DNA of 36,268 nt from Candidatus Saganbacteria bacterium (GCA_016219705.1 JACRKQ010000030.1:1-36268); one strand, 5' to 3'. Counted from the first letter of the stretch, positions 278-34,143 are shown. A program made the numbers and translations. The notes: generated by a model not told the origin, from the sequence alone.

Positions 278-1519
278 ATGCTGTTTGCAAAAAAAGAAAT
301 ACTAACAATAATCCCCTCCGCCAAAATTCTTGGCAAACAAGAAAACTTCTCCGCCGTCTCCACAGATACCCGCACGATTAAAGCTGGAGAACTTTTCCTC
401 CCTTTGTCAGGTAAAAACTTTGACGGCCGCAAATTTATTCCTGCCGCCCTGGGAAAAGGCGCCGCGGCTCTGGACGTCAAAAATGGCTTGGAGCCCCTGC
501 AGAAATTAGCCGCTTACCACCGGAGCAAACTAAAAATTCCCGTCATCGGCATCACCGGCAGTGTGGGGAAGACGACAACCAAAGACATGCTTGCCGCTAT
601 CCTTTCAGAAGAATTTCCCGTATTGAAAACCGAGGAAAATCTTAACAATGAGATCGGCGTCCCGCTGACATTATTAAAGTTAAATAAAAAACACCGGGCT
701 GCCGTGATCGAAATGGGAATGCGGCGTTTAGGCGAGATTAAATTGTTGGCCAAAATCACCCGGCCAACTATTGCCGTCGTCACCAACATCGGCGAATCGC
801 ACCTTGAATACCTGAAGACCCGCAAAAATATCGCGCGCGCTAAAGCCGAGATATTTACCTGCTTAACTAAAAAAGATTTTGTAGTTATCAATGCTGACGA
901 TGAATACTTCGAACACCTAATGTCAAATGTCAAATGTCAAATGTCAAATGTTTGTACCTTTGGCATTATTGATAAGAACGCAACAATAACGCCGAAAGAA
1001 TTAAAAAACATTGATCTTCCGTTGCCTGGCGAACACAACATCTATAACGCCCTGGCCGCCATTGCCGTCGCTAAAATATTAAAGATTAAAAAAACATCGA
1101 TCAAAAATGGACTGGAAAGATTTCGCCCCTCCGCCAACCGCTGGGATGTGATCAATCGTCCTGACAATGTAAAAATCATCAATGACGCCTACAACGCCAG
1201 CCCGCAATCAATGGCCGCCGCGCTCCAGGTTCTGGCGGGGCTTTCAGGCCGCAAAATCGCCATCCTCGGCGACATGTACGAACTGGGGAAGAGAACGATT
1301 GCCGCCCATCGCCAGATTGGCAAACTAGCGCGGCGGTTGAAAATTGATTATTTGGTCTCGATCGGCAAACTGGCAAAAGAGATGAAAGCCGACTATCATT
1401 TTGCCTCCACAACTTCCGCCATTAAAAAATTAAAAACATTGATCGGGCCTGGCGATTGCATCTTGGTCAAAGCTTCCCACGGCCTCCATCTTGAAGAAAT
1501 AGTAGAAGCCCTCCACTAA
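278..1519 (+). CDS. murF: UDP-N-acetylmuramoyl-tripeptide--D-alanyl-D-alanine ligase (MurF)
   Basis: MurF adds D-Ala-D-Ala to UDP-MurNAc-tripeptide in the cytoplasm, the last soluble step of peptidoglycan precursor synthesis. The protein has 413 residues, slightly shorter than E. coli MurF. Family marks in order are the N-terminal STDTR at 28-32, the P-loop GSVGKTTT at 94-101, NLNNEIGVPLTLL, EMGMRRLGEI, the VVTNIGESHLE block, DAYNASPQSM and LGDMYELG. The ATG at 278 is chosen because the protein start fits the family, although the ribosome site is weak. An unusual stretch, LMSNVKCQMSNVC, lies in the central domain and is encoded by a tandem heptamer repeat (919-952). No murE, mraY or other mur gene lies in the window. 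Identification is secure. Confidence 0.95.
   Translation: MLFAKKEILTIIPSAKILGKQENFSAVSTDTRTIKAGELFLPLSGKNFDGRKFIPAALGKGAAALDVKNGLEPLQKLAAYHRSKLKIPVIGITGSVGKTTTKDMLAAILSEEFPVLKTEENLNNEIGVPLTLLKLNKKHRAAVIEMGMRRLGEIKLLAKITRPTIAVVTNIGESHLEYLKTRKNIARAKAEIFTCLTKKDFVVINADDEYFEHLMSNVKCQMSNVCTFGIIDKNATITPKELKNIDLPLPGEHNIYNALAAIAVAKILKIKKTSIKNGLERFRPSANRWDVINRPDNVKIINDAYNASPQSMAAALQVLAGLSGRKIAILGDMYELGKRTIAAHRQIGKLARRLKIDYLVSIGKLAKEMKADYHFASTTSAIKKLKTLIGPGDCILVKASHGLHLEEIVEALH
919..952 (+). repeat. Tandem heptamer ATGTCAA inside murF
   Basis: Four copies of ATGTCAA follow each other, then a partial fifth (ATGT). They encode MSNVKCQMSNV in frame. The unit is not a multiple of three, so a change by one copy would shift the murF frame. 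It belongs to the same style of short AT-rich words seen in leuS and upstream of flhB. Confidence 0.85.
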
Positions 1520-1558
1520 ATCTGCTAAAATAGCTCATAACTCAAAGTGCAAAGCTCG

Positions 1559-1642
1559 GCCGAGGTGGTGGAACTGGCAGACACACCAGCTTGAGGGGCT
1601 GGCGCCTTCAAAAGCGTAGGAGTTCAAATCTCCTCCTCGGCA
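1559..1642 (+). tRNA. tRNA-Leu (anticodon GAG)
   Basis: The acceptor stem pairs GCCGAGG (1559-1565) with CCTCGGC (1635-1641), followed by discriminator A. The anticodon stem CCAGC/GCTGG holds the loop TTGAGGG, giving anticodon GAG (reads CUC and CUU). A long type II variable arm (CGCCTTCAAAAGCG) fits leucine. The T arm is AGGAG-TTCAAAT-CTCCT. The CCA end is not encoded. It lies between murF and the flagellar operon promoter. Confidence 0.97.
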
Positions 1643-1668
1643 TTTTGAGTTTTGATTTTTGAACTAGG

Positions 1669-1697
1669 TTGACTTGCGCAAGTTTATTCGCTAAACT
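1669..1697 (+). promoter_or_regulatory. Sigma70-like promoter of the flagellar operon
   Basis: TTGACT at 1669-1674 and TAAACT at 1692-1697 have a 17-base spacer. The start site would be near 1704, with a GAGGAGG ribosome site at 1713-1719 before the GTG of fliK. The match is to a housekeeping sigma factor. I saw no sigma28 or sigma54 pattern here, so late-class flagellar control is not indicated. Confidence 0.5.
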
Positions 1698-1723
1698 TTC
1701 GATTAACATATAGAGGAGGCAGC

Positions 1724-2476
1724 GTGACCACCGAGCTTTCAGCCATCCAATCTTTTGAACCACAAACTTTGGGCGAGTCCCGTGGCCCGGCCGTTAATCT
1801 GAACAATGATTTCCAAAAATATCTCGATGAAGAACAAAAACGCCTGGTTTTACTCTTTTCCCCTTTCAATCAATTTGATTTCAGCGCCTGGTTCAATTAT
1901 CAGATCTCAACCGATAACCAAACAGGCCGTCAGCCAAAAGTTAATTTGTTTGCCGACATAAATCGACCGCCTGTGAGGACAAAAACCTCTGAACCCGGCC
2001 CAACGGCCAAATCGATAACCGACGCCAATCCTGCCAACGTCAATTTTTCTCAACTTTTGGCTGACAATAGACAATTAACCAGGCAATTACTGCAGAACAT
2101 TTTAGCGCAAACCGGCTGGCTCGTTCCCAATCTTGGCGCCGTCCCGCAATTCCAATCAGCCCAGCTCCAGGGAAAATTATTGGCGACATTCGACCTCCAG
2201 GCGCTGGTCGACCAGATTGTCTCCCAGGTTAAAATGGTGAAAGAAAAAGGCAAAGTAGAATTAAATCTGGGCTTAAAACCGGAAAATCTGGGCGAAATTT
2301 TCCTGACTTTATCAGCGCAGACCGGGAATGTCGCCATCCAGATCCAGGCTTCGGCCGAAACAAAAAAACTTTTGGAACAAAGGCTCGTTGACCTGGAAGC
2401 CGCCCTGAAAAAAGCCCACGTTAATTTTACGGAAATAAAAATTATCGAGACACAGGAGGCAAAAGACCATGCTTGA
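1724..2476 (+). CDS. fliK: Flagellar hook-length control protein FliK
   Basis: FliK measures the hook and switches the export apparatus from hook to filament substrates by acting on FlhB. The 250-residue protein starts with GTG, five bases after a strong GAGGAGG. The first half is polar and low in conservation, as usual for FliK. The C-terminal part (about 150-240) fits the Flg_hook domain, with LNLGLKPENLGEIFLTL followed by IQASAETKKLLEQ. It is the first gene of the flagellar operon and overlaps the next gene by 8 bases. FliK is often 350-400 residues, so this is a short version. The assignment rests on the C-terminal domain and its position. Confidence 0.85.
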   Translation: MTTELSAIQSFEPQTLGESRGPAVNLNNDFQKYLDEEQKRLVLLFSPFNQFDFSAWFNYQISTDNQTGRQPKVNLFADINRPPVRTKTSEPGPTAKSITDANPANVNFSQLLADNRQLTRQLLQNILAQTGWLVPNLGAVPQFQSAQLQGKLLATFDLQALVDQIVSQVKMVKEKGKVELNLGLKPENLGEIFLTLSAQTGNVAIQIQASAETKKLLEQRLVDLEAALKKAHVNFTEIKIIETQEAKDHA

Positions 2477-3281
2477 CATAATGAGCCAGGCCCAGAACGC
2501 GATTGAAGCTTATAATGAAGCGCTAAAAGTCACATCTTCTAACATCTCCAACATGAACGTGACCGGTTATAAAAAGCTTGATACTTCATTTCAATCAATC
2601 TTTGAGAAAATTTTAACTCGGGGCACAGCCGCCCGGAACAATATCGGCGGCACCAACCCTCTCCAATTGGGACAGGGGATGAATTTAGCCAGTGTTTCTA
2701 TTGATTTTTCTAACGGAGAATTAGTCGACGGTAGCGGCGCAGATTTAGCCATCAAAGGCCTGGGGTTATTTATCGTTTCGCCGGACGGCGGCAAGACTTA
2801 TCTCTATACCCGCGCCGGTAATTTCCAGATTGATGCCAGCGGCAATCTGTCCAGCAACGGCCTGCAGGTTTACGGATTAGACGGGGCAGGAAATATGACG
2901 CCGATCACCGGGCTGCCATCCGGCAACCGGAGCAGCTATAAATGGTTATCTGACGGGACGCTTCAATACGCTACCGATGGGACAACTTTCATCTCTACCG
3001 GCTACCGCATCGCTCTGACTTATTTCACTAACCCCAATGGATTAGCCCAAGCCCGAGGCTCAAGTTTCGCGGAGACAGCGGCTTCCGGCAGCGCCGCCGC
3101 CGCTCAAGCGCCCGGCGGATTAGTCGGCGCTGTGTCGCCAGGGCAACTGGAGCGTTCCAATGTCCAATATTTAAGCGAGACAATCGACGCCTTAGAATTC
3201 CAGCGCGCCATGAGCGGCAACCTGACCATGTTGAAGATGGCGTCAGACCTGATCTCATCTTTCATCAGCAAGTTGTCATAA
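2469..3281 (+). CDS. Flagellar hook/rod protein of the FlgE/FlgF/FlgG family
   Basis: This is an axial structural protein of hook or distal rod, exported by the flagellar type III system. The N-terminal block (roughly 5-35, with NISNMNVTGYKK) is the conserved rod/hook motif. DLAIKGLGLFIV, YTRAGNFQIDASGNL and the C-terminal VSPGQLERSNVQYLSETI with LEFQRAMSGN complete the family pattern. At 270 residues it is the size of FlgG and much shorter than a typical FlgE (about 400). Its position right after fliK is where flgD-flgE usually lie, so it may serve as the hook protein; I cannot decide between the two. The ATG at 2469 has an AGGAGG just upstream and overlaps the fliK stop. No flgD is present between them. 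Confidence 0.88.
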   Translation: MLDIMSQAQNAIEAYNEALKVTSSNISNMNVTGYKKLDTSFQSIFEKILTRGTAARNNIGGTNPLQLGQGMNLASVSIDFSNGELVDGSGADLAIKGLGLFIVSPDGGKTYLYTRAGNFQIDASGNLSSNGLQVYGLDGAGNMTPITGLPSGNRSSYKWLSDGTLQYATDGTTFISTGYRIALTYFTNPNGLAQARGSSFAETAASGSAAAAQAPGGLVGAVSPGQLERSNVQYLSETIDALEFQRAMSGNLTMLKMASDLISSFISKLS

Positions 3282-3306
3282 AAATGATAAGAGATAACGA
3301 CTGACC

Positions 3307-4530
3307 ATGACAACAGAGAAGCAAACCGGCAAACCAGAAATCGGCGCCCAGAAACGGGTGATAAAACTGGCGCCGGCGCTGGGCGATTGGACAACTTACA
3401 AACCGCCCAGAATTTTGGTCAAGAAAGTCAAAAGCGGTCTGTACGGCTTTGATCGCCTCTCCAAAAAAGAATTGACCCTGGCCTTGACCATCCACTATCG
3501 TTTCATCCAGCAGTTGCTAAAGCGCTTTAAGGCCGATCTCGACCTGGCGGTTGAACTCTCCCAGACCCAAATGGAACAGACAACTTATTTAAGTTTTTTC
3601 AGGCCTCTGACCGGCTCTTTCGTCCAATGCCGCCTGAATGTGCCGGATTTTTCTGAACCAATATTTTTTTTTCTGGAACAGTCAAATGCCAACGCCATCA
3701 TCAATTATGCTCTTGGCAGTATCGACCTGGAACCGATCAATCGCGCTTTGACTGAAGCGGAAAAGATAACCCTAACGACGGCATTAAACGAATATTTACC
3801 TCTGCTTAATGAAGCTTTTAACCAGACATTAAATGGGGTGAATCTTAACATTATCAGTTCCCCTGATGTTATCATGGACCCAACCGTTAGCCACACTTCA
3901 ACCCTGGCCGCCTTTTCAGCCGATATCTCTTTAGCCGATAATCCTCCAGCTAAATTAATTATTGCCTACCCCGGCTACACGTTAAAAAAACTGCTGGCGG
4001 CCCATCAGGAAACAGAAGACAACAAATCTCTTGATTTTTCCCGCCTGCCGGCAAAACTGCAAGCCGCGATCACTGTCTCGGTCAGCGCCATCCTCGGCGA
4101 AACAACCCTCACCGCCACCGAACTCCAGCAATTTGAAGTCGGCGATGTCGTAACCCTGGAGGCCGACACATCGGAACCGATTACCGCCACTGTGGGAGAA
4201 GACTTCAAACTCTTCTGCCAGCCAGGCTTGAAAAATAAAAAATTGGCCGCGCGAGTGGTCGGACTACAGGAGACAACCGATATCGAACTGCCGCCGCCGC
4301 TGCCGCCGGAACCTCTCCCGCAACCGCCGGCAGAACAAGAAGCGGCAGCCAATCCAACGACCGAGATGCCGGCGGCCGAGATGCCGGAGCCAAACCCGGA
4401 AACAGAAGAAGAACAATTTGAAGACAAATTCGATGAAAATTTTGATGAAGATATTTTAGACGAAGATTTTTTAACTGAAGAACAGACTGCGGAAATACCA
4501 GAGGACAAACAGCCGGGAAGCGCGTTATAA
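3307..4530 (+). CDS. fliM: Flagellar motor switch protein FliM with an acidic C-terminal tail
   Basis: FliM links the MS ring to the C ring and normally receives CheY-P. The region 45-90 (YGFDRLSKKELTLALTIHYR) matches the start of the FliM middle domain. The CheC-like middle domain follows, and a SpoA/FliMN_C domain lies at about 240-322. Two features are unusual. The N-terminal LSQxEIDALL-type CheY-binding peptide is not visible; the start instead reads MTTEKQTGKPEIGAQKR. After the SpoA domain there is an extra tail of about 85 residues, first proline-rich and then strongly acidic (FDENFDEDILDEDFL). The start at 3307 lies 25 bases after the previous stop. FliY is an alternative, but the SpoA domain would not normally be followed by such a tail there either. 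Confidence 0.85.
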   Translation: MTTEKQTGKPEIGAQKRVIKLAPALGDWTTYKPPRILVKKVKSGLYGFDRLSKKELTLALTIHYRFIQQLLKRFKADLDLAVELSQTQMEQTTYLSFFRPLTGSFVQCRLNVPDFSEPIFFFLEQSNANAIINYALGSIDLEPINRALTEAEKITLTTALNEYLPLLNEAFNQTLNGVNLNIISSPDVIMDPTVSHTSTLAAFSADISLADNPPAKLIIAYPGYTLKKLLAAHQETEDNKSLDFSRLPAKLQAAITVSVSAILGETTLTATELQQFEVGDVVTLEADTSEPITATVGEDFKLFCQPGLKNKKLAARVVGLQETTDIELPPPLPPEPLPQPPAEQEAAANPTTEMPAAEMPEPNPETEEEQFEDKFDENFDEDILDEDFLTEEQTAEIPEDKQPGSAL

Positions 4531-4551
4531 TATCATTTAAGGAGGCTCGTT

Positions 4552-4842
4552 ATGGAAGTTAAAAATGTTAAATTCCCGGAATTCGGACAGGAAGAAAAAG
4601 GTGAATTTGTCGAACAGCGGGCCCTGGGGCATATCCCGGTTAAGGCCACGGTAGAATTAGGCCAGGCCGAACTGTCGCTCAAAGAAATTCTTGAATTAGC
4701 TGAAGGCTCGATTATCGAATTAAACCGCCTGGCGGGCGAGCCGCTCGACCTTAAAGTCGGCAGCCAGTTGATCGCCCAGGGCGAGGTGGTCGCAATCGAC
4801 GATTCTTACGGCCTGCGGATCACCAGCGTGGTAATGAAATGA
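4552..4842 (+). CDS. fliN: Flagellar motor switch protein FliN
   Basis: FliN forms the lower C ring with FliM and helps deliver export substrates. The 96-residue protein is almost entirely a SpoA domain: IPVKATVELGQAELSLKEIL, then GSIIELNRLAGEPLDLKV, then IAQGEVVAIDDSYGLRI. The length is typical of short FliN proteins. An AAGGAGG stands about 9 bases before the ATG. The stop overlaps the fliO start (ATGA), which indicates translational coupling. Confidence 0.95.
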   Translation: MEVKNVKFPEFGQEEKGEFVEQRALGHIPVKATVELGQAELSLKEILELAEGSIIELNRLAGEPLDLKVGSQLIAQGEVVAIDDSYGLRITSVVMK

Positions 4843-5135
4843 CCCAGGAGGCTCTGACCTTCCAGCATACTCCCGTCATAACTTTTGGCTATATTGTCCA
4901 ATTAATTTTTTCCCTGGTTGTCGTTCTGACGTTGATCTACTTGATCGCTAAATATCTTATGCCGCGGTTAAAATTAAATCCTAACGGAAAATTGATCCAG
5001 GTCCTCGATCGGGCCTTTCTGGAGCCGCAGGTCAGCGCTTATTTGCTGAAAGTCGGCAAGAATGTCTGGCTGGTCGCCGCCAGCCAGAAACGGATAACAA
5101 AGATCGACAAACTCGAAGAGAGCGAGCTGGTGTAG
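4839..5135 (+). CDS. fliO: Flagellar biosynthesis protein FliO
   Basis: FliO is a small membrane protein that assists assembly of the FliP ring of the export gate. The 98-residue product has one clear membrane segment at about 17-40 (VQLIFSLVVVLTLIYLIAKYL). A small cytoplasmic domain follows, with IQVLDRAFLEPQVSAYLLKV and VWLVAASQKRI, which is the usual FliO pattern. It starts inside the fliN stop codon (ATGA). FliO is poorly conserved, so position between fliN and fliP is part of the evidence. Confidence 0.88.
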   Translation: MTQEALTFQHTPVITFGYIVQLIFSLVVVLTLIYLIAKYLMPRLKLNPNGKLIQVLDRAFLEPQVSAYLLKVGKNVWLVAASQKRITKIDKLEESELV

Positions 5136-5137
5136 AA

Positions 5138-5833
5138 ATGTTTGCTCTATTAGCCGCCGCTCCGCTTATGCCGGCTCTTGATATAAATCGCCTTATAAGC
5201 AGCCCTCAATTTAGCAGCAGTATTCAGATGATTTTATCCATGGCGCTGCTCTCGCTGGTCCCATTTTTTCTCGTTTCGGTTACTTCTTTTCTGCGCATCA
5301 TTATTGTTTTTGGCCTGGTGCGGACCGCCGTCGGCACCCAGCAGGTGCCCCCCAACACTGTCCTGGTTGGCCTGGCCCTTTTCATGACGGTTTTTGTCAT
5401 GTCCCCCGTCTGGAAAGAGGTCAATACCACCGCCCTCACTCCCTATAATCAGGGAAAAATCAGCCAAACCAAGGCCATAGAGATTGGACTAAAACCTTTG
5501 CATCGTTTTATGCTCAAGCAAACCCGGGAAAAAGATCTGGCCTTATTTGTCCAATTTGCCCATATTGCTCCGCCCCACAAGCCTGACGACGTCCCGCTCT
5601 ATGTTTTGATCCCCGCTTACATGATTTCAGAACTTAAGACCGCTTTCCAGATCGGTTTCCTGCTTTTTATCCCTTTCATCATGATCGACCTGACCGTCGC
5701 TAATGTTTTGCTCTCCCTGGGGATGTTCATGCTCTCGCCTGTCATGATCTCACTGCCGTTTAAGATTCTGCTTTTTGTCCTGGCTGACGGCTGGAACTTG
5801 ATCTGCCGCGGCCTGCTTTTAAGTTTTAGGTAA
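5138..5833 (+). CDS. fliP: Flagellar export gate protein FliP
   Basis: FliP forms the core pentamer of the type III export gate in the inner membrane. The 231-residue sequence carries the family signatures SFLRIIIVFGLVRTA and VPPNTVLVGLALFMT in the first half. The C-terminal half has YVLIPAYMISELKTAFQIGF and SLGMFMLSPVMISLPFKILL. Four hydrophobic membrane segments are visible. The start follows the fliO stop by 2 bases. Length is normal for FliP without a long signal peptide. Confidence 0.97.
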   Translation: MFALLAAAPLMPALDINRLISSPQFSSSIQMILSMALLSLVPFFLVSVTSFLRIIIVFGLVRTAVGTQQVPPNTVLVGLALFMTVFVMSPVWKEVNTTALTPYNQGKISQTKAIEIGLKPLHRFMLKQTREKDLALFVQFAHIAPPHKPDDVPLYVLIPAYMISELKTAFQIGFLLFIPFIMIDLTVANVLLSLGMFMLSPVMISLPFKILLFVLADGWNLICRGLLLSFR

Positions 5834-5836
5834 TTT

Positions 5837-6106
5837 ATGAACCAGGATTTTGCCGTCCAGGTCCTTTATCAAGGAGTCATCACCACGCTGATGATTTCCA
5901 TGCCGACCGTCGGCGTCGGTTTGCTGGTCGGTTTTATCATCAGCCTGTTCCAGGCAGTGACCCAGATCCAGGAACAGACTTTAACCTTTGTCCCCAAAGT
6001 CATCGCGGTCTTTCTGGTCTTGGTGCTGACCGCCCCCTGGGTCTCCTCAATTATGGTTGATTTTACTGTCACCCTTTGGAGCATGATTCCCGGCATGGCT
6101 CGATGA
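5837..6106 (+). CDS. fliQ: Flagellar export gate protein FliQ
   Basis: FliQ packs around the FliP/FliR core of the export gate. The 89-residue protein has two membrane hairpin segments and the conserved centre GLLVGFIISLFQAVTQIQEQ, followed by TLTFVPK. Length is typical. It starts 3 bases after fliP, and its stop overlaps the fliR start by ATGA. Confidence 0.97.
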   Translation: MNQDFAVQVLYQGVITTLMISMPTVGVGLLVGFIISLFQAVTQIQEQTLTFVPKVIAVFLVLVLTAPWVSSIMVDFTVTLWSMIPGMAR

Positions 6107-6876
6107 TTATCAGTCTTCCCCAGTTAACTGTTTTTTTATTGATCATCGCCCGCATCGCCGGAATTTTCCTCCAGGCGCCGATTTTTACCTCCCGCAGTTT
6201 TCCTGTTTTGGGCAAAGTCACTTTAGCAATTTGGATCACCCTCCTGCTCTGGTTTGTCGTCCCGATCTATCGCCCCCTGCCAGCCGCCTTGCCGCTGCTG
6301 ATGCTGGCCCTGGTCTTTGAGGTCGCCCTTGGTTTTGTCATCGGCTTCATGGTCAATTTTATTTTCCTGGCGCTGCAGGCCGCCGGCGAGATCATGGACA
6401 TGCAGATGGGCCTTTCCGTCGCTACCGCCCTCGACCCGATTTTTGGTTCGGTGATCTCCATTATCGGCCGGTTAGCTTTTTATATCGCCCTGATCTTTTT
6501 CCTGGCGGTTAACGGGCACCATCTGATTTTAAGCGCTCTCCATCAGAGCTTTACCATCATTCCCGTCGGTAAGTTCGCAAATTTCACCTCGCCTCATCTG
6601 GCTATGCAAATGATCAGTTTGGGTACGGCGCTCTGGCGGTCCGCCATCCAGCTGGCCGGCCCCATTATCCTGATGATCTTTCTAATCGATTTTTCTTTCG
6701 GCATTATTTCGCGGGTCGCCCCCCAAGTCAACGTTTTTATGCTCGGCTTCCAGGTCAAGCCGATGGTCGGTTTGCTCGGCTTCTCTCTCTGCCTGCCGTT
6801 TATCGTCAAATATTTTAACCACCAGCTCGAATTCATGACCCAACAACTAATTCTACTGTTAAACAACATCAAATAG
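6103..6876 (+). CDS. fliR: Flagellar export gate protein FliR
   Basis: FliR completes the FliPQR gate. The product from the ATG at 6103 has 257 residues with six or more hydrophobic segments. It carries family stretches such as RIAGIFLQAPIF, FEVALGFVIGFMVNFIF and the GEIMDMQMGLSVATALDP block. A TTG at 6076 would add nine residues, but that start lies deep inside fliQ, and the ATGA overlap at 6103-6106 matches the coupling used by its neighbours. The gene is followed by a 152-base repeat-bearing gap before flhB. Confidence 0.96.
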   Translation: MIISLPQLTVFLLIIARIAGIFLQAPIFTSRSFPVLGKVTLAIWITLLLWFVVPIYRPLPAALPLLMLALVFEVALGFVIGFMVNFIFLALQAAGEIMDMQMGLSVATALDPIFGSVISIIGRLAFYIALIFFLAVNGHHLILSALHQSFTIIPVGKFANFTSPHLAMQMISLGTALWRSAIQLAGPIILMIFLIDFSFGIISRVAPQVNVFMLGFQVKPMVGLLGFSLCLPFIVKYFNHQLEFMTQQLILLLNNIK

Positions 6877-6886
6877 TCCTATAATA

Positions 6887-7019
6887 AATCCTAATTCCTA
6901 AATACTAAATTCTAAACAAATTCTAAATACAAATGATTTAAAAATTTTGATTCGCGCGTTTAGAATTTATGTCATTTGGATTTGTTTAGAGTTTCGAATT
7001 TAGTGCTTAGAATTTAGGA
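6887..7019. repeat. Imperfect inverted repeat of AT-rich words between fliR and flhB
   Basis: The left arm (about 6887-6936) contains CTAAATACTAAATTC and TAAACAAATTC. The right arm (about 6971-7019) is nearly its reverse complement, with GGATTTGTTTAGAG and GAATTTAGTGCTTAG. The arms could fold into a long imperfect hairpin around a centre near 6950. The outer end of the right arm supplies the TAGGAG used as the flhB ribosome site. The style matches the GAAATACGAAATTCGAAA words in leuS. This is the largest non-coding gap inside the flagellar operon. Confidence 0.75.
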
Positions 7020-7028
7020 GTTACGGTT

Positions 7029-8138
7029 ATGGGTGAAGGTGGCGGCGGCGATAAATCTGAAGAACCGACTCCGCATCGGTTAAGAGAAGCGCGGGAAAAA
7101 GGCCAGGTCGCCAAGAGCCGCGAAGTAACCGTGGCCGTGGTCCTCTTGGTTACGTATTATTCCCTCCGCTTTTTCGGACCAATGATGTGGACGGGATTAA
7201 TTGATTCCATCAACGCCATGTTCGACCTTATTCCCGAAGCTACGAGAAATTTCAACCTGACTCTGGCCGGCTATATCCTGCTCCTGGGATTGCGCGGCAT
7301 GGCGCTGGCGGTACTGCCAATATTCGGCATCGCTTTCGCCGCCACTTTTATTGCCGAGGTCCTGCAGACAGGATTTGTTTTTTCTTTCGAACCTTTGAGC
7401 CCCAAAATTGAAAAGCTCAATCCGCTCGAAGGTTTTAAAAAAATGTTCTCCCTGCAGGGCCTGGTCGAGCTGGTCAAATCCCTGCTGAAAATCGGCATTG
7501 TTTTTTATATCACCTGGCTGGCGATCAAAGAAGACCTCCCCTTTATCGTCGTGCTGGTCGAATCTCATCCCTGGGAGATCATCGCTCTGGGCGCCAATCT
7601 TGTTTTTAAGATCGCTATGCGCGTCGGCGTTTTCTATATTGCGGTCGCCATCCTTGATTATTTGTATCGCCGCTGGGAATACATGCGCAATCTCAAAATG
7701 ACCAAACAGGAAGTCAAAGAAGAATACAAACGGCTGGAAGGCGACCCGATGGTTAAACAGCGGATGCGCGATTTACAACGTCAGGCCGCCCAACAGCGGA
7801 TGATGGCCGCCGTCCCCAAAGCCGATGTCGTCGTCACTAACCCGACCCACATCGCTGTCGCCCTGAAATATGAACAGCAGAAAATGAAAGCGCCGCTCGT
7901 CCTGGCCAAAGGGGAGCGCAAAATCGCCGAAGAGATTAAAAAGATCGCCGAAGCCCATGAGATTTCCATTGTGGAAAACGAGCCGCTGGCCCGCTCCATC
8001 TACCGCAGTACTAAACTTAACCAGGAAATTCCCAGCGAACTTTACCAAGCCGTGGCCGAAGTTTTGGCCTATGTTTACAAGGTCCGCCGCGAGCGCGCCG
8101 CTCGACGGAAAGGTTCGATTGCTCTTGCACCCAGATAA
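7029..8138 (+). CDS. flhB: Flagellar export switch protein FlhB
   Basis: FlhB is an inner-membrane export gate component whose cytoplasmic domain self-cleaves to switch substrate class. The 369 residues begin with a glycine-rich start, then the family block SEEPTPHRLREAREKGQVAKS. Four membrane segments span about 30-210. The basic linker (YRRWEYMRNLKMTKQEVKEE) follows, and the autocleavage motif NPTH is intact at 271-274. A TAGGAG at 7015-7020 precedes the ATG. An extra GEGGGG at positions 2-7 is a small oddity. Its partner FliK is encoded at the head of the same operon. Confidence 0.97.
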   Translation: MGEGGGGDKSEEPTPHRLREAREKGQVAKSREVTVAVVLLVTYYSLRFFGPMMWTGLIDSINAMFDLIPEATRNFNLTLAGYILLLGLRGMALAVLPIFGIAFAATFIAEVLQTGFVFSFEPLSPKIEKLNPLEGFKKMFSLQGLVELVKSLLKIGIVFYITWLAIKEDLPFIVVLVESHPWEIIALGANLVFKIAMRVGVFYIAVAILDYLYRRWEYMRNLKMTKQEVKEEYKRLEGDPMVKQRMRDLQRQAAQQRMMAAVPKADVVVTNPTHIAVALKYEQQKMKAPLVLAKGERKIAEEIKKIAEAHEISIVENEPLARSIYRSTKLNQEIPSELYQAVAEVLAYVYKVRRERAARRKGSIALAPR

Positions 8139-8160
8139 GTATATAATTTGAGGCGAAAAT

Positions 8161-23673: not shown

Positions 23674-24213
23674 TCAATAAGTCGAATCCGCCTTTTGTAA
23701 AATCTTTAATTCCAGCGGATCATCCGCGCCCAAAGGCTCCGCCTGCGGATCATGTTTGGAAATAATAGAAATTACCACCGACGATTCGCCCAGCTTCTCT
23801 AAAAGATGCGCGCCGATCGCCCCGTGATGTTTGTGGCTGTAAAAACGACGGAAGAACGGATGATTTTTGCCTAAGTCAGCCAAATAATTAAATAGCGGCG
23901 GCAACAAAAACCTGATCATGACCATAAATGCTTTAGTTAAAAGAGAATTTTTTTCAACAATTTTTCCAATGTCATGGAGCAGGCCTAAACGCGCCAGCAG
24001 ACGTTTATTCAATTCCGGATACTGATGAGCGGCCGACAACATTTTTTGGGCGACAACAACAGCATGTTTTTTCTCGAAATAAGGCAACTGGTTAAAAAGC
24101 GCCAGCTCTTTCCGACTTAAATAATTTTGGGCAAAAACCGCATCAGTCGCGGTGTAACGAGAGAAAACTCCGAAATAAAATTGTTGGAAACGATAAATCA
24201 AGCGATCAAGCAT
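23674..24213 (-). CDS. HD-domain hydrolase (putative phosphohydrolase)
   Basis: The 179-residue protein carries an HD metal site: His near 49 (KKHAVVVAQKM), LHDIGK at about 79-84, SHKHHGAIGAHLLEKLG and SKHD. These residues bind a divalent metal in phosphodiesterases and phosphatases. A hydrophobic helix pair (AFMVMIRFLLPPLFNYL) sits in the middle, suggesting membrane contact or a buried core. The start overlaps the trpA stop by 8 bases, so it is translated with trpBA. Substrate is unknown. Its place behind trpA is probably convenience rather than tryptophan-related. Confidence 0.8.
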   Translation of the reverse strand: MLDRLIYRFQQFYFGVFSRYTATDAVFAQNYLSRKELALFNQLPYFEKKHAVVVAQKMLSAAHQYPELNKRLLARLGLLHDIGKIVEKNSLLTKAFMVMIRFLLPPLFNYLADLGKNHPFFRRFYSHKHHGAIGAHLLEKLGESSVVISIISKHDPQAEPLGADDPLELKILQKADSTY

Positions 24214-26102: not shown

Positions 26103-26111
26103 TATTGTTTA

Positions 26112-26140
26112 ATTATAGTCAACAAAGAAAATGTATTCAA
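26112..26140 (-). promoter_or_regulatory. Sigma70-like promoter for trpBA
   Basis: On the minus strand TTGAAT (26140-26135), a 17-base spacer and a consensus TATAAT (26117-26112). The -10 ends 10 bases before the trpB ATG at 26102, leaving room for only a few leader bases. No trp attenuator or T-box fits in this space. Confidence 0.55.
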
Positions 26141-26159
26141 GCAGAAACATCGCCTCGGG

Positions 26160-26188
26160 TTGAAAAAATCCTGCATAATTGTTAAAAT
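26160..26188 (+). promoter_or_regulatory. Sigma70-like promoter for clpC-leuS
   Basis: TTGAAA (26160-26165), 17-base spacer, TAAAAT (26183-26188). A GGGAGG at 26201-26206 then precedes the ATG at 26212. I saw no CtsR or CIRCE-type heat-shock operator in the 110-base gap shared with trpB. Confidence 0.5.
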
Positions 26189-26211
26189 GTCTTATTTCAT
26201 GGGAGGATATA

Positions 26212-29073
26212 ATGGAAGAATCAAATCAAGGATTTAAATGCGAAGTTTGCGGCCAGCCGGCGACTGTCCACATCACCAAAATTGTTAACGGCCGGAAGGC
26301 CACCCGCCATCTCTGCGCCAGGCACGCCGCCGAAGAAGGATTGATGCCGGGCGCGAACCTGGGGGGGAATGCCGGCGGTTTTGAAGATTTTGGCTTTCCC
26401 GGTTTTTTTGAATTCCCGGATATTTTCGCTTCTCTTTTCAAACGCCGGTCGTCGGAACGTTTCTATGATTATTTTTCGGCGGAAGCCCAAAAAGTTGTCC
26501 ATCTGGCATCGGAAGAGGCCAAACGCTTGGGACATGACCACCTGCGCACCGAACATCTCCTGCTGGGCTTGATCAAAGAAGAAGGTTTCGCTGTCCAGGT
26601 GCTGCAGCAATTAGGGGTCGACATTGTAAATCTATTTTCTGATATTGAGTCATTGATCGGCCATGGCGAAGGTTCTCCGGAAAAAGTTGCTCTCTCCCCT
26701 CGCGCTAAAAAAGTCCTCGAACTCGCCTACAACGCCGCCCGGGAATTGGGTTTTAATTACGTCGGTCCGGAACATATCCTCCTCGGTATTATTCGTGAAG
26801 GTGAAAGTATTGCGGCGCAGGCGCTCCATAAACGGAAAATAACTTTTGACAAGGCGGCTAAAGAAATTATCGCCGCGGCGGAAAAAGCTTTGGGCCAGGC
26901 CGGCGAACCAGCGGACGAAGGCGCTTTTGGCGGGGAAGAGCTCTCGCCGGAAGAGTTTGAACAGTCCGGCGGGATGTTCGGTTTCCCCGGCATGGGTATG
27001 GGCATGGGCGGGACGCCACGTAAGCAAAAGGCGGCTTTAGCCTCATTTGGCCGCGATTTGACCGTCGCCGCCAAAGAAGGAAAACTTGATCCGGTTATCG
27101 GCCGGGAAAAAGAGATTGATCGGATCATGCGCATCCTCTCGCGGCGGACAAAAAATAATCCCGCCCTCCTGGGCGACCCTGGCGTCGGGAAAACCGCTAT
27201 CGTTGAAGGCCTGGCCCAGCGCATTATCAAAGGAGAGGTCCCTGATGTCATCAGGGACAAACAAGTTATTTCCCTGGATCTAGGCGGCATGGTCGCCGGG
27301 ACAAAATACCGCGGAGAATTCGAATCCCGCGTGAAAAAGGTCATCGAAGAGATCTTGGCTAAAAAGCGCCAGATAATTTTATTTATTGACGAGCTGCACA
27401 CGCTGGTCGGGGCCGGCGGGGCCGAAGGAGCCATCGATGCCGGCAACATGTTAAAACCGGCGCTGGCCCGCGGCGAACTCCAAATCATCGGCGCCACCAC
27501 CGTCGATGAATACCGCAAGAACATTGAAAAAGACGCCGCCCTGGAGCGCCGTTTTCAGCCGGTTTTGGTGACAGAACCGACAGTTGAGCAGACCATTGAT
27601 ATCCTCAAGGGGATCCGCGATCGCTATGAATCGCACCATAAGGTTAAAATCCCCGATGCCGCCTTAATCGCCGCGGCTTCCCTCTCCCATCGCTACATTT
27701 CCGATCGTTTTCTGCCGGACAAAGCCATCGACGTCATGGATGAAGCCGCCGCCAAAGTGAGATTGCGCCTCCTTTCTCCGGTGAAAAATATCCAGTTGCT
27801 TAAGCGGGCGCTGGAAAAAGCCAATAAAGATAAGGAAACATTATTAGCCGAACAAAAATATGAAGAAGCGGCCAAATTGCGCGATAAAATTGCGGCCGAA
27901 GAGAAAAAGCTGCAGCAGTTAGAAACCAGTCATAAAGCGGAGACCGAGACGGGCGGCGCCATGGTGACGGAAGATGATATCGCGGAAATTGTTTCTGACT
28001 GGACCGGCATTCCCGTTGTCAAACTAACCGCCGCCGAGACGGAAAAATTGATCCGCATGGAAGATGAAATGCACAAACGGGTCATCGGCCAGGATGAAGC
28101 GATCCACGCTATTTCCCAGGCGATTCGGCGCGGCCGGGCAGGATTGAAACCGCCGCAGCGGCCCATCGGTTCATTTATTTTTGCCGGACCGACCGGCGTC
28201 GGAAAAACCGAAGTCGCCCGCCGATTGTCTGAATTCATGTTCGGCACCCAGGACGCCTTAATTCGCCTGGACATGTCGGAGTTTATGGAAAAACACACCG
28301 TCTCCCGCCTGATCGGCGCCCCCCCCGGCTACGTCGGCTACGAAGAAGGCGGCAAGCTGACTGAAGCGGTGCGGCGCAAGCCTTATTCGGTAATCCTGTT
28401 TGACGAGATTGAAAAAGCTCATCCTGATGTTTTTAATGTCATGCTACAGATATTAGAAGACGGTCGCTTGACTGATTCCAAAGGCCACGTTGTCGATTTT
28501 AAAAATACGGTTATCATCATGACCAGCAATATCGGACAGAAGATGATTGCCGAACAGGGGCCGATCGGCTTTATGGCCCAGGAAGATCGAGAAGCGACTT
28601 ATGAAAAAATGAAAGACACGGTGCTTGACGCCATGAAGCGGGATTTCCGGCCTGAATTTCTTAATCGTGTCGACGAAATTATTGTTTTCCATCAGCTCAC
28701 TGATGATGAGTTAAAGAAAATTGCCGGTTTGATTATCGGCGAAGTCCAAAAGCAGATGAAAGACCGGGAAATGGAATTGGAGATCACGGAAGCGGCTAAA
28801 GCCTTGATCGTTAAAGAAGGTTATGAGCCGAAATTCGGCGCGCGGCCATTGCGCCGGGCGGTACAGCGCTTGATTGAAAATCCTTTATCCAATCAAATTA
28901 TTGATGGAACCTTTAAGGCCGGCGATAAGATCAAAACCGATATCAAAGACGGCAAAACTTTTTTTGAAAAGGTCGGAGCCACGCCACTTAAAGAACCTCA
29001 AACAAAAAAAGCAGAACCAGAAGTTGTAGAAAAACCAAAGAAAAACGAAAAACCGGCTAAGAAAAAGAAATGA
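26212..29073 (+). CDS. clpC: ClpC-type AAA+ unfoldase with N-terminal McsA-like zinc finger
   Basis: ClpC unfolds proteins for degradation by ClpP. The 953-residue product begins with CEVC at 10-13 and CARH at 35-38, a zinc-binding pattern like the N-terminus of McsA. A Gly-rich linker and the double Clp_N domain (about 84-230) follow. AAA1 has Walker [10 protein letters not shown] near 321 and Walker [11 protein letters not shown] near 388. A UVR-like coiled coil with [17 protein letters not shown] lies at about 550, and AAA2 has GPTGVGKTE near 659 and [11 protein letters not shown]. The IGF tripeptide (GPIGFMAQ) of the ClpP-contact loop is present. The tail is Lys-rich. The ATG at 26212 is set by GGGAGG; the longer reading lacks one. 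In Bacillus, McsA is a separate protein, so the fusion is notable. The stop overlaps leuS (ATGA). Confidence 0.95.
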
Positions 29074-31547
29074 CCCCTTATACCCCCACCGACCTCGAGC
29101 CTAAATGGCAGCAAGAATGGGAAAAACAGCAACTCAACATTACTCAATATGCTTCTGCTCAACCCAAGTATTATGCCCTTGTCATGTTTCCTTATCCCTC
29201 CGGCAACCTTCACATGGGGCACGTCCGCAACTATGCCATCGGCGACGTGATTGCCCGTTTTAAGCGGATGAACGGCTTTAATGTCCTCCACCCCATCGGC
29301 TGGGACGCCTTTGGCCTGCCGGCGGAAAATGCCGCCATTAAAAATAACACCCATCCTGAACCCTGGACCGACAGTTGTATTGCCCGGATGAAAACCCAGT
29401 TAAAAAGGCTGGGAATTTCTTATGATTGGGGCCGTGAAATCAACACCAGCAAACCAGATTATTATAAATGGACCCAATGGATGTTCCTTTTAATGTACGA
29501 ACGGGGTTTGGCTTATCGTAAAAAAGCTTCAGTTAACTGGTGCCCGCAATGTGAAACAGTCCTGGCCAATGAACAGGTGATTAAAGATAATATCTGCTGG
29601 CGCTGCGACTCCCAGGTCCAGGAGAAAGAACTGGAACAATGGTTTTTGAAAATTACCGACTATGCCGACCGTCTGCTCGACGACCTTGACCAATTAACGG
29701 GCTGGCCCGAGCCGGTCAAGACGATGCAGAGGAATTGGATCGGGAAGTCGGAGGGAGTAGAGATAAAATTCGAAATACGAAATTCGAAATACGAAATAAA
29801 TCAAAAATCCAAAAATCAAAACCTTTCAATTTATACTACTCGACCTGATACGCTTTTCGGGGTAACCTATATGGTTTTGGCGCCGGAGCATCCGCTGGCG
29901 CTTGAGCTGGCGCATGGCACACCTCAAGAAAAAGAAATTAAAGCCTACATTGAAAAAGTGAAACACGAGAGCGCGCATGACAGGGCCGTCTCGACCGCCA
30001 AAGAAGGGGCCTTTACTGGAGGCTACGCTATTAATCCCGCTAACGGAGAAACGGTCCCGATCTGGATTGCCGACTACGTCCTGATGGGCTATGGCACCGG
30101 AGCCGTGATGGCCGTCCCCGCCCATGACCAGCGCGATTTTGAGTTTGCCCGGCAAAATGACCTCCCGATTAAAATCGTCATTTGTCCCAATTATCCCGAA
30201 CCGATCTGCCCGATATTGGAAAAGGCTTTTGTCGACGAAGGACATTTAGTCGATTCCGGCAAGTTTAACGGCCAAAAAAGCTCGCTAGCCCGTGTCGCCA
30301 TCGGAAACTGGTTGATGGAGCAAAAATTAGGCCAATGGAAAATCAATTATAAATTGCGCGACTGGCTGGTCTCCCGCCAGCGCTACTGGGGCGCACCTAT
30401 CCCTATAATCTATTGTCCTAAATGCGGCATTGTCCCTGTGCCAGCCGAAGATCTTCCTGTTAAATTACCAATAGATGTCGAATTTACCGGTGCAGGGGCC
30501 TCGCCGCTGATCAAGTCAAAATCATTCCTGGAAGCCGCCTGTCCCAAATGCGGCGGGAAAGCCAGACGAGAAATTGATACGCTTGATACTTTTAACTGCT
30601 CGTCCTGGTATTATTTCCGCTACACCGACCCGCATAATGATAAAAAACCATTTGAGCCGGCCCGGGCTAAAGAGTGGCTGCCGGTCGACCAATATATTGG
30701 CGGAATCGAACACGCTATCCTGCATCTCCTCTACTCGCGCTTTTTCACCAAAGTTCTCCATGATGCCGGCTGGTCAGCGGCGGGGGAACCTTTTAAAAAC
30801 TTATTGACCCAGGGGATGGTAGTTAAAGACGGAGCCAAGATGAGCAAATCGAAAGGCAATGTCGTTGACCCCGACGCTATCATCGAAAAATATGGGGCGG
30901 ATACGGCCCGGCTTTTTATCCTCTTCGCCTCGCCGCCGGAGAAGGAGCTGGAGTGGAGTGATAAGGGGGTCGAAGGGTCATTTAGATTCCTCAATAGAGT
31001 GTGGCGATTAGTTATTGATAATGCCGAATTCCTAACGCTTAATGCCGAATTAATGAACATTCATCCTAAATTATTAAGAAAAACAAATCAATTAATTAAA
31101 AATGTTTCAGAAGGTATTGAAAAATTTTCTTTTAATACAGCTATTGCAAGAATGATGGAGTTTACCAATCTATTATACGAATATAAAAATGATCCTACTT
31201 TAGTTAGGCATTTGGCATTTTGCATTAGGCATTTATTGATAATGTTAGCTCCTTTCGCCCCTCATTTAGCAGAAGAATTATGGCAGCAGTTGGGTCACGA
31301 GGAGAGCATCCACTCCCAACCGTGGCCGAAGTACGACATGAACTTAGTCAAAGAAGAGACGCTGACCATTGCGGTTCAGGTCAATGGAAAACTGCGGGAG
31401 ACCATCCGCGTGCCGGCCGTGACCAGCGATGAAACGATAAAAGCAACTGCTTTAGCCAATGAAAAAATCAAGTCCTTTACTAACAACAAAGAAGTTGTCA
31501 AAGTCATCATTGTGCCCAACAAGCTGGTTAACATTGTCGTCAAATAA
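29070..31547 (+). CDS. leuS: Leucyl-tRNA synthetase (LeuRS)
   Basis: LeuRS charges tRNA-Leu and edits mischarged products. The 825 residues include the class I signature HMGH at 48-51 ([18 protein letters not shown]), [12 protein letters not shown], two zinc-type Cys pairs (CPQC and CWRC), the CP1 editing region with TTRPDTLFG, and KMSKS at 590-594. The anticodon-binding and C-terminal domains follow. Three in-frame low-complexity insertions are odd: about residues 232-252 ([14 protein letters not shown]), 650-661 ([11 protein letters not shown]) and 712-722 ([11 protein letters not shown]). These are encoded by short tandem word repeats, and each sits between conserved blocks where a loop is plausible. 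The start overlaps the clpC stop. Confidence 0.97.
29764..29822 (+). repeat. Word-repeat insertion in the leuS editing region
   Basis: GAAATACGAAATTC is followed at once by GAAATACGAAATAA, then AATCAAAAATCC and AAAAATCAAAACC. It encodes about 20 residues rich in Asn, Lys and Ser, just before the conserved TTRPDTLFG. The reading frame is preserved. Confidence 0.8.
31020..31051 (+). repeat. Direct repeat AATGCCGAATT in leuS
   Basis: AATGCCGAATT occurs at 31020-31030 and 31041-31051, encoding NAEF and NAEL. A related word block, GGCATTTGGCATTTTGCATT then AGGCATTT, lies at 31207-31234. Confidence 0.65.
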
Positions 31548-31557
31548 ATGTTATAAT
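31528..31557 (+). promoter_or_regulatory. Promoter for the nucleotidyltransferase module, inside the leuS end
   Basis: TTAACA (31528-31533), 18-base spacer, consensus TATAAT (31552-31557). The -10 ends 10 bases before the ATG at 31568 and no Shine-Dalgarno is present, so the transcript is probably leaderless. Confidence 0.5.
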
Positions 31558-31567
31558 TAAAACAATT

Positions 31568-31882
31568 ATGTTTGATCCGCGTAAAAAATTAAAAATCATT
31601 CCAGCTTATACTGGCTTGACCACTTTGAAAGAAGTCTTAAAAGACGAACGCGCCCAGCGCCTTCTCTGGCTTGAGATTCTCTTTAATGACACTATTGATT
31701 GGAGAAAATTCAAGCGGAAAATTTTAAAAAAAGCATACAAGAAAGCCAGCCTTTGGTATGGGCATTTTAAGACCATGATAGATAATTATGTCGGCAGAGA
31801 ACCCTTAAAAGCCCAAAGAGGCAGAATTGATGGCCGTGAATATCGAACGTTCCTGGAGGCATTGAATCTTGTCACAGCTTAA
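31568..31882 (+). CDS. Small basic protein of unknown function, partner of the nucleotidyltransferase
   Basis: I do not recognise this 104-residue protein. It is strongly basic and looks alpha-helical (RKILKKAYKKASLWYGHFKTM), with no signal peptide or membrane segment. It overlaps the following nucleotidyltransferase-fold gene by 14 bases, so the two are translated together. It has what looks like a private promoter with no leader. Such an overlapping pair, a small basic protein plus a DUF6036/AbiEii-like protein, is reminiscent of toxin-antitoxin or abortive-infection modules, but no family match supports calling it a toxin or antitoxin. TTLKEVLKDERAQRLLWLEI near residues 18-37 could help a database search. 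Confidence 0.7.
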   Translation: MFDPRKKLKIIPAYTGLTTLKEVLKDERAQRLLWLEILFNDTIDWRKFKRKILKKAYKKASLWYGHFKTMIDNYVGREPLKAQRGRIDGREYRTFLEALNLVTA

Positions 31883-32396
31883 TCTTTCAAAAATTATTAA
31901 ACTCCTTAAAAAGTTTACGCAGGAATCCCGCACTTCTTTAGAAATCATCATCATCGGGGGGTTAGCCCTCTCTCACTATGGCTTGAAAGGGCGATCAACT
32001 GTCGATATAGACGGCGAAACAAAGGGTGATCTTGATTCGCTCTCTAATTTTTTAAAATCACGAAAAATCCCTTTTAGTCTGGGAGAAAACATTTCCAACT
32101 GGGGAATTGTGAGCCTTTCCCCAGGCTATCGCTTAAGAGCAGTCCCTATTTTTACGGACCAGGATCTCATAGTAAAAGTTCTCGATCCTGTAGATTTTAT
32201 TATCGCAAAAATCAGGCGGTTTTCCGAAATAGATATAAAAGACGCCCTTTACGTCGCAAAAAAATTTAAAATTAAACCAGAAGTAATAAGCCGGGCCGCC
32301 GGAGAAGCGATCGGGAACTCGCCTAAAGACACAGCCCTTTTTATCTTTAAGAAAAATTTAGCCTTGTTTATTAAAATGCTGCGTCCCGTGAAATAA
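31869..32396 (+). CDS. Nucleotidyltransferase-fold protein (DUF6036/AbiEii-like)
   Basis: The 175-residue protein fits the minimal nucleotidyltransferase fold: IIIIGGLALSHYGL gives the GG motif, RSTVDIDGE gives the DxD-like acidic pair, and VLDPVDFIIAKIRRFSEIDIKDA is the downstream helix block seen in DUF6036 and AbiEii relatives. It starts with TTG at 31869, set by GGAGG nine bases upstream inside the preceding gene. Relatives act as tRNA or protein nucleotidylating toxins in type IV systems, or are uncharacterised. With its overlapping basic partner it may form a two-gene module. Which partner is toxic, if either, cannot be told from the sequence. Confidence 0.75.
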   Translation: MSQLNLSKIIKLLKKFTQESRTSLEIIIIGGLALSHYGLKGRSTVDIDGETKGDLDSLSNFLKSRKIPFSLGENISNWGIVSLSPGYRLRAVPIFTDQDLIVKVLDPVDFIIAKIRRFSEIDIKDALYVAKKFKIKPEVISRAAGEAIGNSPKDTALFIFKKNLALFIKMLRPVK

Positions 32397-32427
32397 GATA
32401 ATTTTGAAAACCATTGATTAAAAATTT

Positions 32428-34143
32428 ATGAAATCTCTATATGAAGAAAAAATCCTCCCTTTTGTCCAGCGGCCCGGGCGCTATATCGGCAATGAGTTGA
32501 ATTCCGTCCACAAGGATTGGGATAAAATCAACATCAAAGTCGCCCTCTCCTACCCCGATCTGTATGAGATCGGCATGTCCAACGTCGCCATTCAGATCCT
32601 CTACTATACATTCAATCAACAGCCTGATGTCCTGGCCGAGAGGGTCTTTGCTCCGGCCCCAGATTTTGAAAGTTTACTTACTACTAACAACTTACAACTA
32701 ACGACTCTCGAATCTTTTCGCCCTTTGTCCGATTTCAATCTCATCGGGATCTCCCTTGGCCACGAGCTAACCTACACTAATATTTACAATATTCTCAAGC
32801 TGGGCGGGGTTCCACCATGGCAAAAGGACCGCGACGACAAAGCTCCTTTGGTAATGGGCGGCGGACCGTGCTCCTTCAATCCCGAACCGATCGTTGATTT
32901 TTTTGATTTTTTTGTCATCGGGGAGGCAGAAGAAGTGCTTATTCAAATTCTAGATGTTCTCCATAATTCGTCATTAGTCCCGCCTCCATTATTTGATAAT
33001 TGTTGCGGGATCCCGCAAAGCGGGAGCATTCGTCATTCTTCATTAGAAGCCCTTGCTAATATCCCGGGAATATATGTCCCCACCCTCCACAACAAAGTAA
33101 CCAAAAGAATCGTCAAAGATATAAACAACACTCCTTACCCCACCAACCCGATCATCCCTTTTATCGAAACGGTCCACGACCGGGCAGTCGTTGAAATCAT
33201 GCGCGGGTGCAAATGGGGCTGTAAATTCTGCCAGGCCGGCTGGACCAACCGTCCGGTGCGGCAAAAATCAGGCGAGAAAATTATCGCCCTGGCCGATGAA
33301 TTATTAAAAAACACCGGCTACGAGGAGCTCTCTCTGGTTTCGCTTTCAACCTCTGACCATACCCAGATTGCGGAGACGGCCAAAACTTTGGCGAAGAAAT
33401 ATCAGGATAAACGGATCAATATTAGCCTCCCTTCCATGCGTACGAACACTTTTTCTGTTGGCTTGGCTAAAGAAGTCTCGCGCGTGCGCCCCAGCGGCGT
33501 GACACTCGCCCCCGAAGCCGGCACGCAACGTCTGCGGGATGTGATTGGTAAAAACATGAGCGAAGAAAACATCTTTGACGGGATCAAAGCCGCCTTCTCG
33601 GCCGGCATTGAATCGATCAAACTCTATTTCATGATCGGTCTACCGACCGAGACTGATGAAGATTTAATCGGAATTTGTAAGCTTGCCCAAAAAATCTGGG
33701 AGACGGGGAAAACGTATACTAATCGGGTTCGTATTTCAGTCAACTTGGCCACCTTTGTCCCCAAGCCGCATACTCCTCTGCAATGGGAAGAACAAATTGG
33801 GATTGCCGAGACCTTAAGACGACAGCATCTGATCAAACAAAACGTTAAAAATAAGCGGATTGAGGTCCGCTGGCATCAAGCCGAGGCCAGTTTTATGGAG
33901 GGGGTATTCGCCCGTGGCGACAGCCGCCTCTCAAAAGTTATCGAAAAGGCCTGGGCGCTCGGCTGCCGCCTCGACGCCTGGTCGGAATATTTAAAGTTTG
34001 ATCTATGGCTGCAAGCATTTAAGGAATCCGGTATCGATCCGCATGAGTATCTTAAAGCCCGCGATAAAAATGCCCCTCTACCCTGGGATTATATTGATAC
34101 GGGAGTAGCTAGGGATGTTTTGCTGCGGGTTGCTAATTACTAA
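32428..34143 (+). CDS. B12-binding-like radical SAM protein, TIGR03960 type
   Basis: The 571-residue protein has an N-terminal Rossmann-like region (SYPDLYEIGMSNVAIQILY) and a radical SAM domain. The 4Fe-4S cysteines are in RGCKWGCKFCQAG (Cys261, Cys265, Cys268). Downstream TLAPEAGTQRLRDVIGKNM and KLYFMIGLPTETDED are typical of the TIGR03960 family. That family is often joined to or followed by a DUF2344 (TIGR03936) partner; none follows here. Function is unknown, possibly RNA or ribosome modification. Two in-frame odd stretches, about residues 84-95 (LTTNNLQLTTLE) and 178-206 (NSSLVPPPLF then IRHSSL), look like repeat insertions. The start lacks a Shine-Dalgarno. Confidence 0.9.
   Translation: MKSLYEEKILPFVQRPGRYIGNELNSVHKDWDKINIKVALSYPDLYEIGMSNVAIQILYYTFNQQPDVLAERVFAPAPDFESLLTTNNLQLTTLESFRPLSDFNLIGISLGHELTYTNIYNILKLGGVPPWQKDRDDKAPLVMGGGPCSFNPEPIVDFFDFFVIGEAEEVLIQILDVLHNSSLVPPPLFDNCCGIPQSGSIRHSSLEALANIPGIYVPTLHNKVTKRIVKDINNTPYPTNPIIPFIETVHDRAVVEIMRGCKWGCKFCQAGWTNRPVRQKSGEKIIALADELLKNTGYEELSLVSLSTSDHTQIAETAKTLAKKYQDKRINISLPSMRTNTFSVGLAKEVSRVRPSGVTLAPEAGTQRLRDVIGKNMSEENIFDGIKAAFSAGIESIKLYFMIGLPTETDEDLIGICKLAQKIWETGKTYTNRVRISVNLATFVPKPHTPLQWEEQIGIAETLRRQHLIKQNVKNKRIEVRWHQAEASFMEGVFARGDSRLSKVIEKAWALGCRLDAWSEYLKFDLWLQAFKESGIDPHEYLKARDKNAPLPWDYIDTGVARDVLLRVANY
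32962..33046 (+). repeat. Repeat insertion with palindrome in the radical SAM gene
   Basis: ATTCGTCATTA near 32966 and ATTCGTCATT near 33028 flank the perfect palindrome GCGGGATCCCGC at 33005-33016, followed by AAAGCGGGA. The segment stays in frame and encodes residues with no counterpart in the conserved family core. A second word block lies at about 32677-32711 (ACTAACAACTTACAACTAAC). Confidence 0.65.

Follow-up and report, generated by a model that had tools for sequence, protein, structure and literature searches.

Seven-nucleotide tandem arrays within conserved genes and intergenic hairpins of a Candidatus Saganbacteria genome and its class relatives

Heptameric repeats are the commonest class of long simple sequence repeats (SSRs) in many bacteria. 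Described examples include the STRR sequences of cyanobacteria, GGGAATC in Xanthomonas and TAACTGA in the Beggiatoaceae, and polymerase slippage is the published proposal for such repeats (PMC4692102, PMC4679880), the mechanism having so far only been proposed. Heptads are also found in the P6b region of the Nostoc tRNA-Leu (UAA) intron, where they fall into Class I (TDNGATT) and Class II (NNTGAGT), one class repeatedly replacing the other (PMC4476775). Rickettsia palindromic elements (RPEs) are insertions of 105–146 bp which keep their palindrome and are found between genes as well as, in frame, within conserved genes (PMC2229807). Among open-licence papers we found no description of heptad arrays in protein genes of the Margulisiibacteriota.

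The arrays reported here resemble the heptameric SSRs in consisting of tandem 7-mers, with many copies per genome and some inverted pairs; TAACTGA-like units of the Beggiatoaceae type are also present (loci L023 and L146). Their exact 7-nt units exceed chance as do those of STRR, but while heptameric SSRs are mostly intergenic, with one dominant word per genome, the present arrays are mostly genic (65 of 103), in frame, built from many words and recurrent at homologous protein sites. With Nostoc P6b they share degenerate 7-nt units at a fixed site, replacement of classes by lineage, and inverted arms which form a stem. P6b, however, belongs to a self-splicing intron and functions as an RNA stem-loop, whereas here many words are spread over the genome, in the coding segments of essential enzymes and in hairpins between genes. 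An earlier note, made from this DNA alone, had likened the repeats to RPEs in effect, and this holds: there are dispersed hairpin-forming elements between genes as well as in-frame copies in conserved genes. RPE copies keep their palindrome, whereas the genic copies here are mostly single heptad arms, often without net insertion; an inverted partner within 250 bp accompanies 15 of the 31 intergenic arrays (1.9 expected) but only 2 of the 65 genic ones (1.9 expected by chance). Finally, short GC-rich dispersed palindromes recall the REP/RAYT (Y1_Tnp) systems; unlike those, the palindromes are often in genes and in frame, and the genome has just two Y1_Tnp matches, one of them weak.

The window, that is, the whole stretch of 36,268 nucleotides analyzed, is contig C94 of a 94-contig genome (1.47 Mb, 87% complete). 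The closest relatives of its LeuRS come from metagenome-assembled genomes (MAGs) of Ca. Saganbacteria, WOR-1 and Margulisiibacteriota. NCBIfam models matched murF, leuS, a TIGR03960 radical SAM gene (rSAM), flhB and flhA, and no Rfam family was found in the window. At its right end (36120–36268) lies a dispersed repeat which it shares with the ends of further contigs of the MAG; terminal repeats of about 150 bp are present on several contigs.

Table 1. Genes, repeat sites and dispersed palindrome copies. Positions refer to the window unless a locus is named.
Feature	Position	Strand	Remarks
murF	278–1519		
leuS	29070–31547		
TIGR03960 radical SAM (rSAM) gene	32428–34143		
MurF 219 array, in murF	912–955	+	AATGTCA x4.7; residues ~212–226; native helix-loop-strand apparently overwritten, no net insertion
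flhB hairpin, intergenic, upstream of flhB	6881–7020		inverted TAAATTC-type heptad arms; CTAAACAAAT junction in both arms
LeuRS 238 array, in leuS	29763–29826	+	AAATTCG/AAATACG to 29800, then AAATCAA/AAATCCA units to 29822
LeuRS 655 block, in leuS	31020–31051	+	weak AATGCCG/AATTCCT
LeuRS 716 array, in leuS	31200–31238	-	AAATGCC (GGCATTT on +, 31203–31235); ~+7 aa
rSAM 88 array, in TIGR03960 gene	32674–32715	+	ACTTACA/ACTAACA; protein length unchanged
rSAM 200 composite insert	32966–33045	+	ATTCGTC-type units flank GC-rich palindromic core (~32972–33030); +16 aa
TGCCTGCCGGCCAGACGGCCCGTATGGGCAGGCAGG palindromic family copies	L158:8127–8182, L180:8469–8519, L180:12543–12599, L191:3995–4040, L194:908–951, L196:6879–6922		
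TACCCCCTCTT...AGAGGGGGT family copies	L186:3626–3707, L191:4610–4689, L191:14841–14931, L196:6490–6535, L207:7002–7077		

Tandem words had been claimed at sites in murF, leuS and the rSAM gene, and all are present (Table 1). The weakest is leuS 31020–31051, which is best described as a 21-nt repeat (AATGCCG recurs after 21 nt), lies below the lag-7 threshold and is absent from the TRF list; the same LeuRS 655 site holds strong arrays in relatives. The block upstream of flhB is indeed a hairpin, its RNA fold having an energy of -37.7 kcal/mol (z -6.9) which none of 200 shuffles equalled. The units had been put at 7–14 bases; the true unit is 7 nt, those of 14 bases being two 7-mers in alternation.

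We scanned 1.21 Mb (82% of this one MAG) at every lag tested, blind to sequence, requiring at least 18 matches in 21 at a given lag. This gave 41 sites at lag 7, as against none in Markov-4 and 6-mer-block shuffles; the other lags from 4 to 13 gave 0–3 sites each, except lag 8 with 10, which are perhaps arrays with indels. A looser threshold (at least 16/21) returned 103 arrays, of which 65 are genic and in frame, 31 intergenic and 7 partial, according to approximate gene calls from an ORF/hexamer caller. The proposal of a genome-wide repeat system which tolerates coding DNA, keeps the reading frame and is written in words that differ but share a style is borne out. The genic arrays are fewer than the approximately 92 expected in genes at random. 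The arrays occur in leuS, ileS (three sites), valS, murF, ligA, gltD, rpe and coaX, and further in trmD, aroA, queA, panB, a TatD-linked radical SAM gene and a BioD-like AAA_26 gene. At L142:13199–13244, L148:6389–6437 and L177:5147–5214 there are apparent signal peptides, judged by eye, whose hydrophobic core derives from heptads (HLSFVICHLSF) or from a palindromic core; in L142 and L148 the array lies inside the signal peptide. L185:800–2506 is a single ORF matching Resolvase, UPF0004 and Radical_SAM (Pfam), with arrays near residues 341 and 418; possibly it is a false fusion of ORFs, or else a real one.

The commonest array words in the genome are AAATGAC, AATGACT and AAATCCG. Most words are AT-rich, as had been noted, but GGGTCAA, ACGAGGG and CCCTACT types are present too. 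There is no fixed variable position within the 7-nt unit (mismatch concentration 0.378, 0.366 expected). When the array peptides were recoded with synonymous codons the mean lag-7 score was 11.1, compared with 17.6 observed, and in 54 of the 65 genic arrays no more than 3 of 300 recodings reached the observed score. Since synonymous recoding loses the score, the periodicity is a property of the DNA and not a consequence of the peptides. One might have supposed that peptides are selected, either as 7-residue repeats or as motifs that serve a function in loops and signal peptides, with the DNA period as a by-product, and the peptides at one site are chemically alike between genera (S[NKR]V...S[NKR]V in MurF). 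Beyond the recoding result, however, 31 of the 103 arrays are intergenic and identical words turn up on either strand and in several reading frames, and we regard this explanation as very improbable.

MurF, the radical SAM protein and LeuRS were chosen for ortholog comparison because the window arrays lie in their genes, and were aligned from up to 30 relatives belonging to other genera of the same class. Lag-7 arrays numbered 17, 27 and 30 in the three genes respectively, while the counts at each of the remaining lags between 4 and 12 were 0–6 (one LeuRS lag match being a run of N). They recur at MurF ~18 and ~219, at rSAM ~88, ~200 and ~237, and at LeuRS ~238, ~377, ~655, ~716 and ~745. The words differ by genus; at MurF 219 they are of AAATGTC, AAGGGTC, AAAAGTC, GGGTCGC or GGGTTAC types.

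The earlier note spoke of insertions, and this is true of only some sites. The LeuRS 238 loop of the window is about 9 aa longer than the usual bacterial loop, at a place where length varies freely among relatives. LeuRS 716 measures 33–34 aa in 5/6 sequences with arrays and 26–28 aa in 14/15 without; the gain of about 7 aa equals 21 nt, that is, three units or seven codons, the smallest multiple of both 3 and 7. In rSAM 200 of the window the additional 16 aa are due to the palindromic core. Elsewhere length is mostly the same whether or not an array is present: MurF 219 is 34 aa in 9/11 sequences with arrays and 8/11 without, rSAM 88 is 27 aa in 10/12 and 14/16, and rSAM 237 is 27 aa in all. 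For rSAM 200 among the relatives the common length, 33 aa, was seen in 7/10 with arrays and 9/18 without. The MurF 219 segment, a helix-loop-strand in a structure model, exists in the MurF of E. coli and Pseudomonas, about 2 residues shorter, so that native sequence appears to have been overwritten. Judging from these alignments, native sequence would have been rewritten as heptads, with different words per genus and usually at equal length, at MurF 219 and at rSAM 88, 200 and 237.

A congeneric pair, G015 and G017, illustrates such a change. In the flank of rSAM 200 their DNA identity is 86% and their protein identity 96%, whereas at the site itself the values fall to 44% and 33% with no indel, the words being GTTACGC in one and AATTCG in the other. 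On the sequences of this single pair, replacement of the whole array is not easily explained by gradual substitution or by slippage. Slippage of the polymerase in preferred steps of 7 nt, building arrays from local sequence while selection keeps net changes of 0 or 21 nt, would explain why the period is fixed and the words vary. That words are specific to a site agrees with local seeding, and the gain of three units at LeuRS 716 fits too. This model does not account readily for the wholesale switch between G015 and G017 at fixed length, for words, junctions and unit order common to unrelated loci, or for the frameshifts through which stepwise changes of +7 or -7 nt would pass in essential genes. 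Slippage as sole driver is not supported by these results; in the form just described we think it unlikely. Somewhat tentatively, and at rather less than even chances, we suggest a DNA-copying process with a built-in 7-nt step which rewrites patches of the chromosome in place, codons of essential enzymes included, sister genera repeatedly receiving new words at constant length.

Words are shared within genomes. In the window genome 89 pairs of arrays have identical words, compared with 4.75 for letter-shuffled words; in the remaining genomes of the class, pairs of distinct loci had the same word in 11/222 cases within a genome and in 28/4419 between genomes. The leuS array at 31200–31238 has its order of variant units and its flanks in common with intergenic L198:18750–18785 and L145:10696–10732, with 94% identity over 36 nt and 92% over 37 nt. 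The aperiodic junction of the flhB arms recurs in intergenic L154, L172 and L206 and in genic L191 (queA) and L196. In 29 class genomes a pattern for this junction matched 62 times and its reversed control 4 times; the corresponding figures for 40 genomes elsewhere in the phylum are 6 and 1. Because some arrays at unrelated loci have such an aperiodic junction or unit order in common, it appears that sequence is being copied.

The palindromic core of rSAM 200 (~59 bp) is 96.6% identical over 59 nt to a sequence in truB and 95.6% over 68 nt to one in a signal-peptide gene; in all three genes it is open in frame and bordered by heptads. Dispersed palindromic families P2 and P3 lie mostly in genes, and the GC-rich palindromic elements lie within or beside places with heptad arrays. 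One dispersed palindromic family, TGCCTGCCGGCCAGACGGCCCGTATGGGCAGGCAGG, has six copies, five in predicted genes and two adjoining TAATGAC heptads; a second dispersed family, TACCCCCTCTT...CTCCCCCTT..AAGGGGGAGAA..AGAGGGGGT, has five copies, four of them in predicted genes. Such observations might be explained by small mobile elements of MITE or RPE type with heptad arms, inserted by a transposase, the genic copies being truncated or eroded. The intergenic elements with inverted arms, the near-identical core in three unrelated genes, and the mostly genic P2 and P3 all speak for this, and RPEs are a precedent (PMC2229807). Set against it are the lack of net length gain at MurF 219, rSAM 88 and rSAM 237, the different words at one site and the presence of only two Y1_Tnp matches, one of them weak; furthermore no target duplication was identified. 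We consider mobile elements an improbable source of the arrays.

Across genomes, the words found at one site resemble each other more closely than permuted words do (0/300 permutations, three genes). The effect of belonging to the same genome, within these three genes, is weak on the coding strand (15/300) and clearer when either strand is allowed (3/300). Taken together these results fit targets which partly match the donor word, with donors supplied by the genome, although the likeness of same-site words could also stem from protein constraint. As same-site words are alike and words are also shared within a genome, we favour templated copying within the genome.

The reading we prefer, to which we give an even chance, is a class-wide heptad system whose arms would be copied within the genome by templated synthesis and then filtered by selection. 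The intergenic form would often be a hairpin of two inverted 7-mer arms around a spacer, and the genic form single arms in frame. Any of the many arms in the genome might act as donor and a partly matching site as target, which ectopic conversion or template switching would overwrite in register. Copies with stops, frame shifts or an altered length of a fixed-length protein would presumably be purged by selection. Single arms in frame would then persist in loops, linkers and signal peptides, and entire hairpins in the intergenic regions. We infer no benefit to the host; a process that is tolerated, selfish or mutational is consistent with the pattern.

As to what might write the arrays, several candidates were rejected. 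Reverse transcriptase (RVT_1) is scattered, being present in 18/69 phylum genomes, and is not class-specific. Loss of mismatch repair is at odds with MutS in 58/69 phylum genomes, most members of the class included. Among the 69 phylum genomes checked for RVT_1 and MutS, no class-specific enzyme was found. The window genome has no MutS_V match while nearly all its class relatives have one, which probably reflects an assembly gap. Phage-borne spread was discounted, three tandem AAATGAC units occurring in 8 viral stretches as against 12 for the reversed word; nor do the words fit the 7-nt anticodon loops of tRNAs as templates (by eye).

In some 30 sister genera, heptad arrays occupy the same loci of essential genes but are spelled in different words, and the length of the protein is often fixed. 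The class is therefore a natural comparative experiment on the origin of the 7-nt period, on the copying of words within a genome and on how much overwriting a conserved enzyme tolerates. Alignment blocks of LeuRS, IleRS, ValRS, MurF and others can hold repeat-derived, non-homologous residues, and such blocks may mislead phylogenies and structure inference.

The earlier suggestion would have failed had the words been no commoner than chance. The degenerate word WAATGNC, three times in tandem, has 17 matches in the window genome and none for the reversed control; it is absent from 31 genomes of other phyla and from G034, which belongs to another class. AAATGAC x3 is present in 11/74 and AAATCCG x3 in 7/74 phylum genomes (reversed controls 0), all among the 31 genomes of the window's class, and both are absent from the 43 phylum genomes of other classes. 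As far as the tested words go, the heptad system would appear confined to one class of the Margulisiibacteriota, uncultured relatives of cyanobacteria; other words may occur outside it. A few lag-7 arrays are present in loci of Firestonebacteria and Actinomycetota. One Firestonebacteria genome lacks the WAATGNC word, yet has at L087:1440–1535 an inverted pair of heptads, TAAATTC/TTTAGAG, in the same style.
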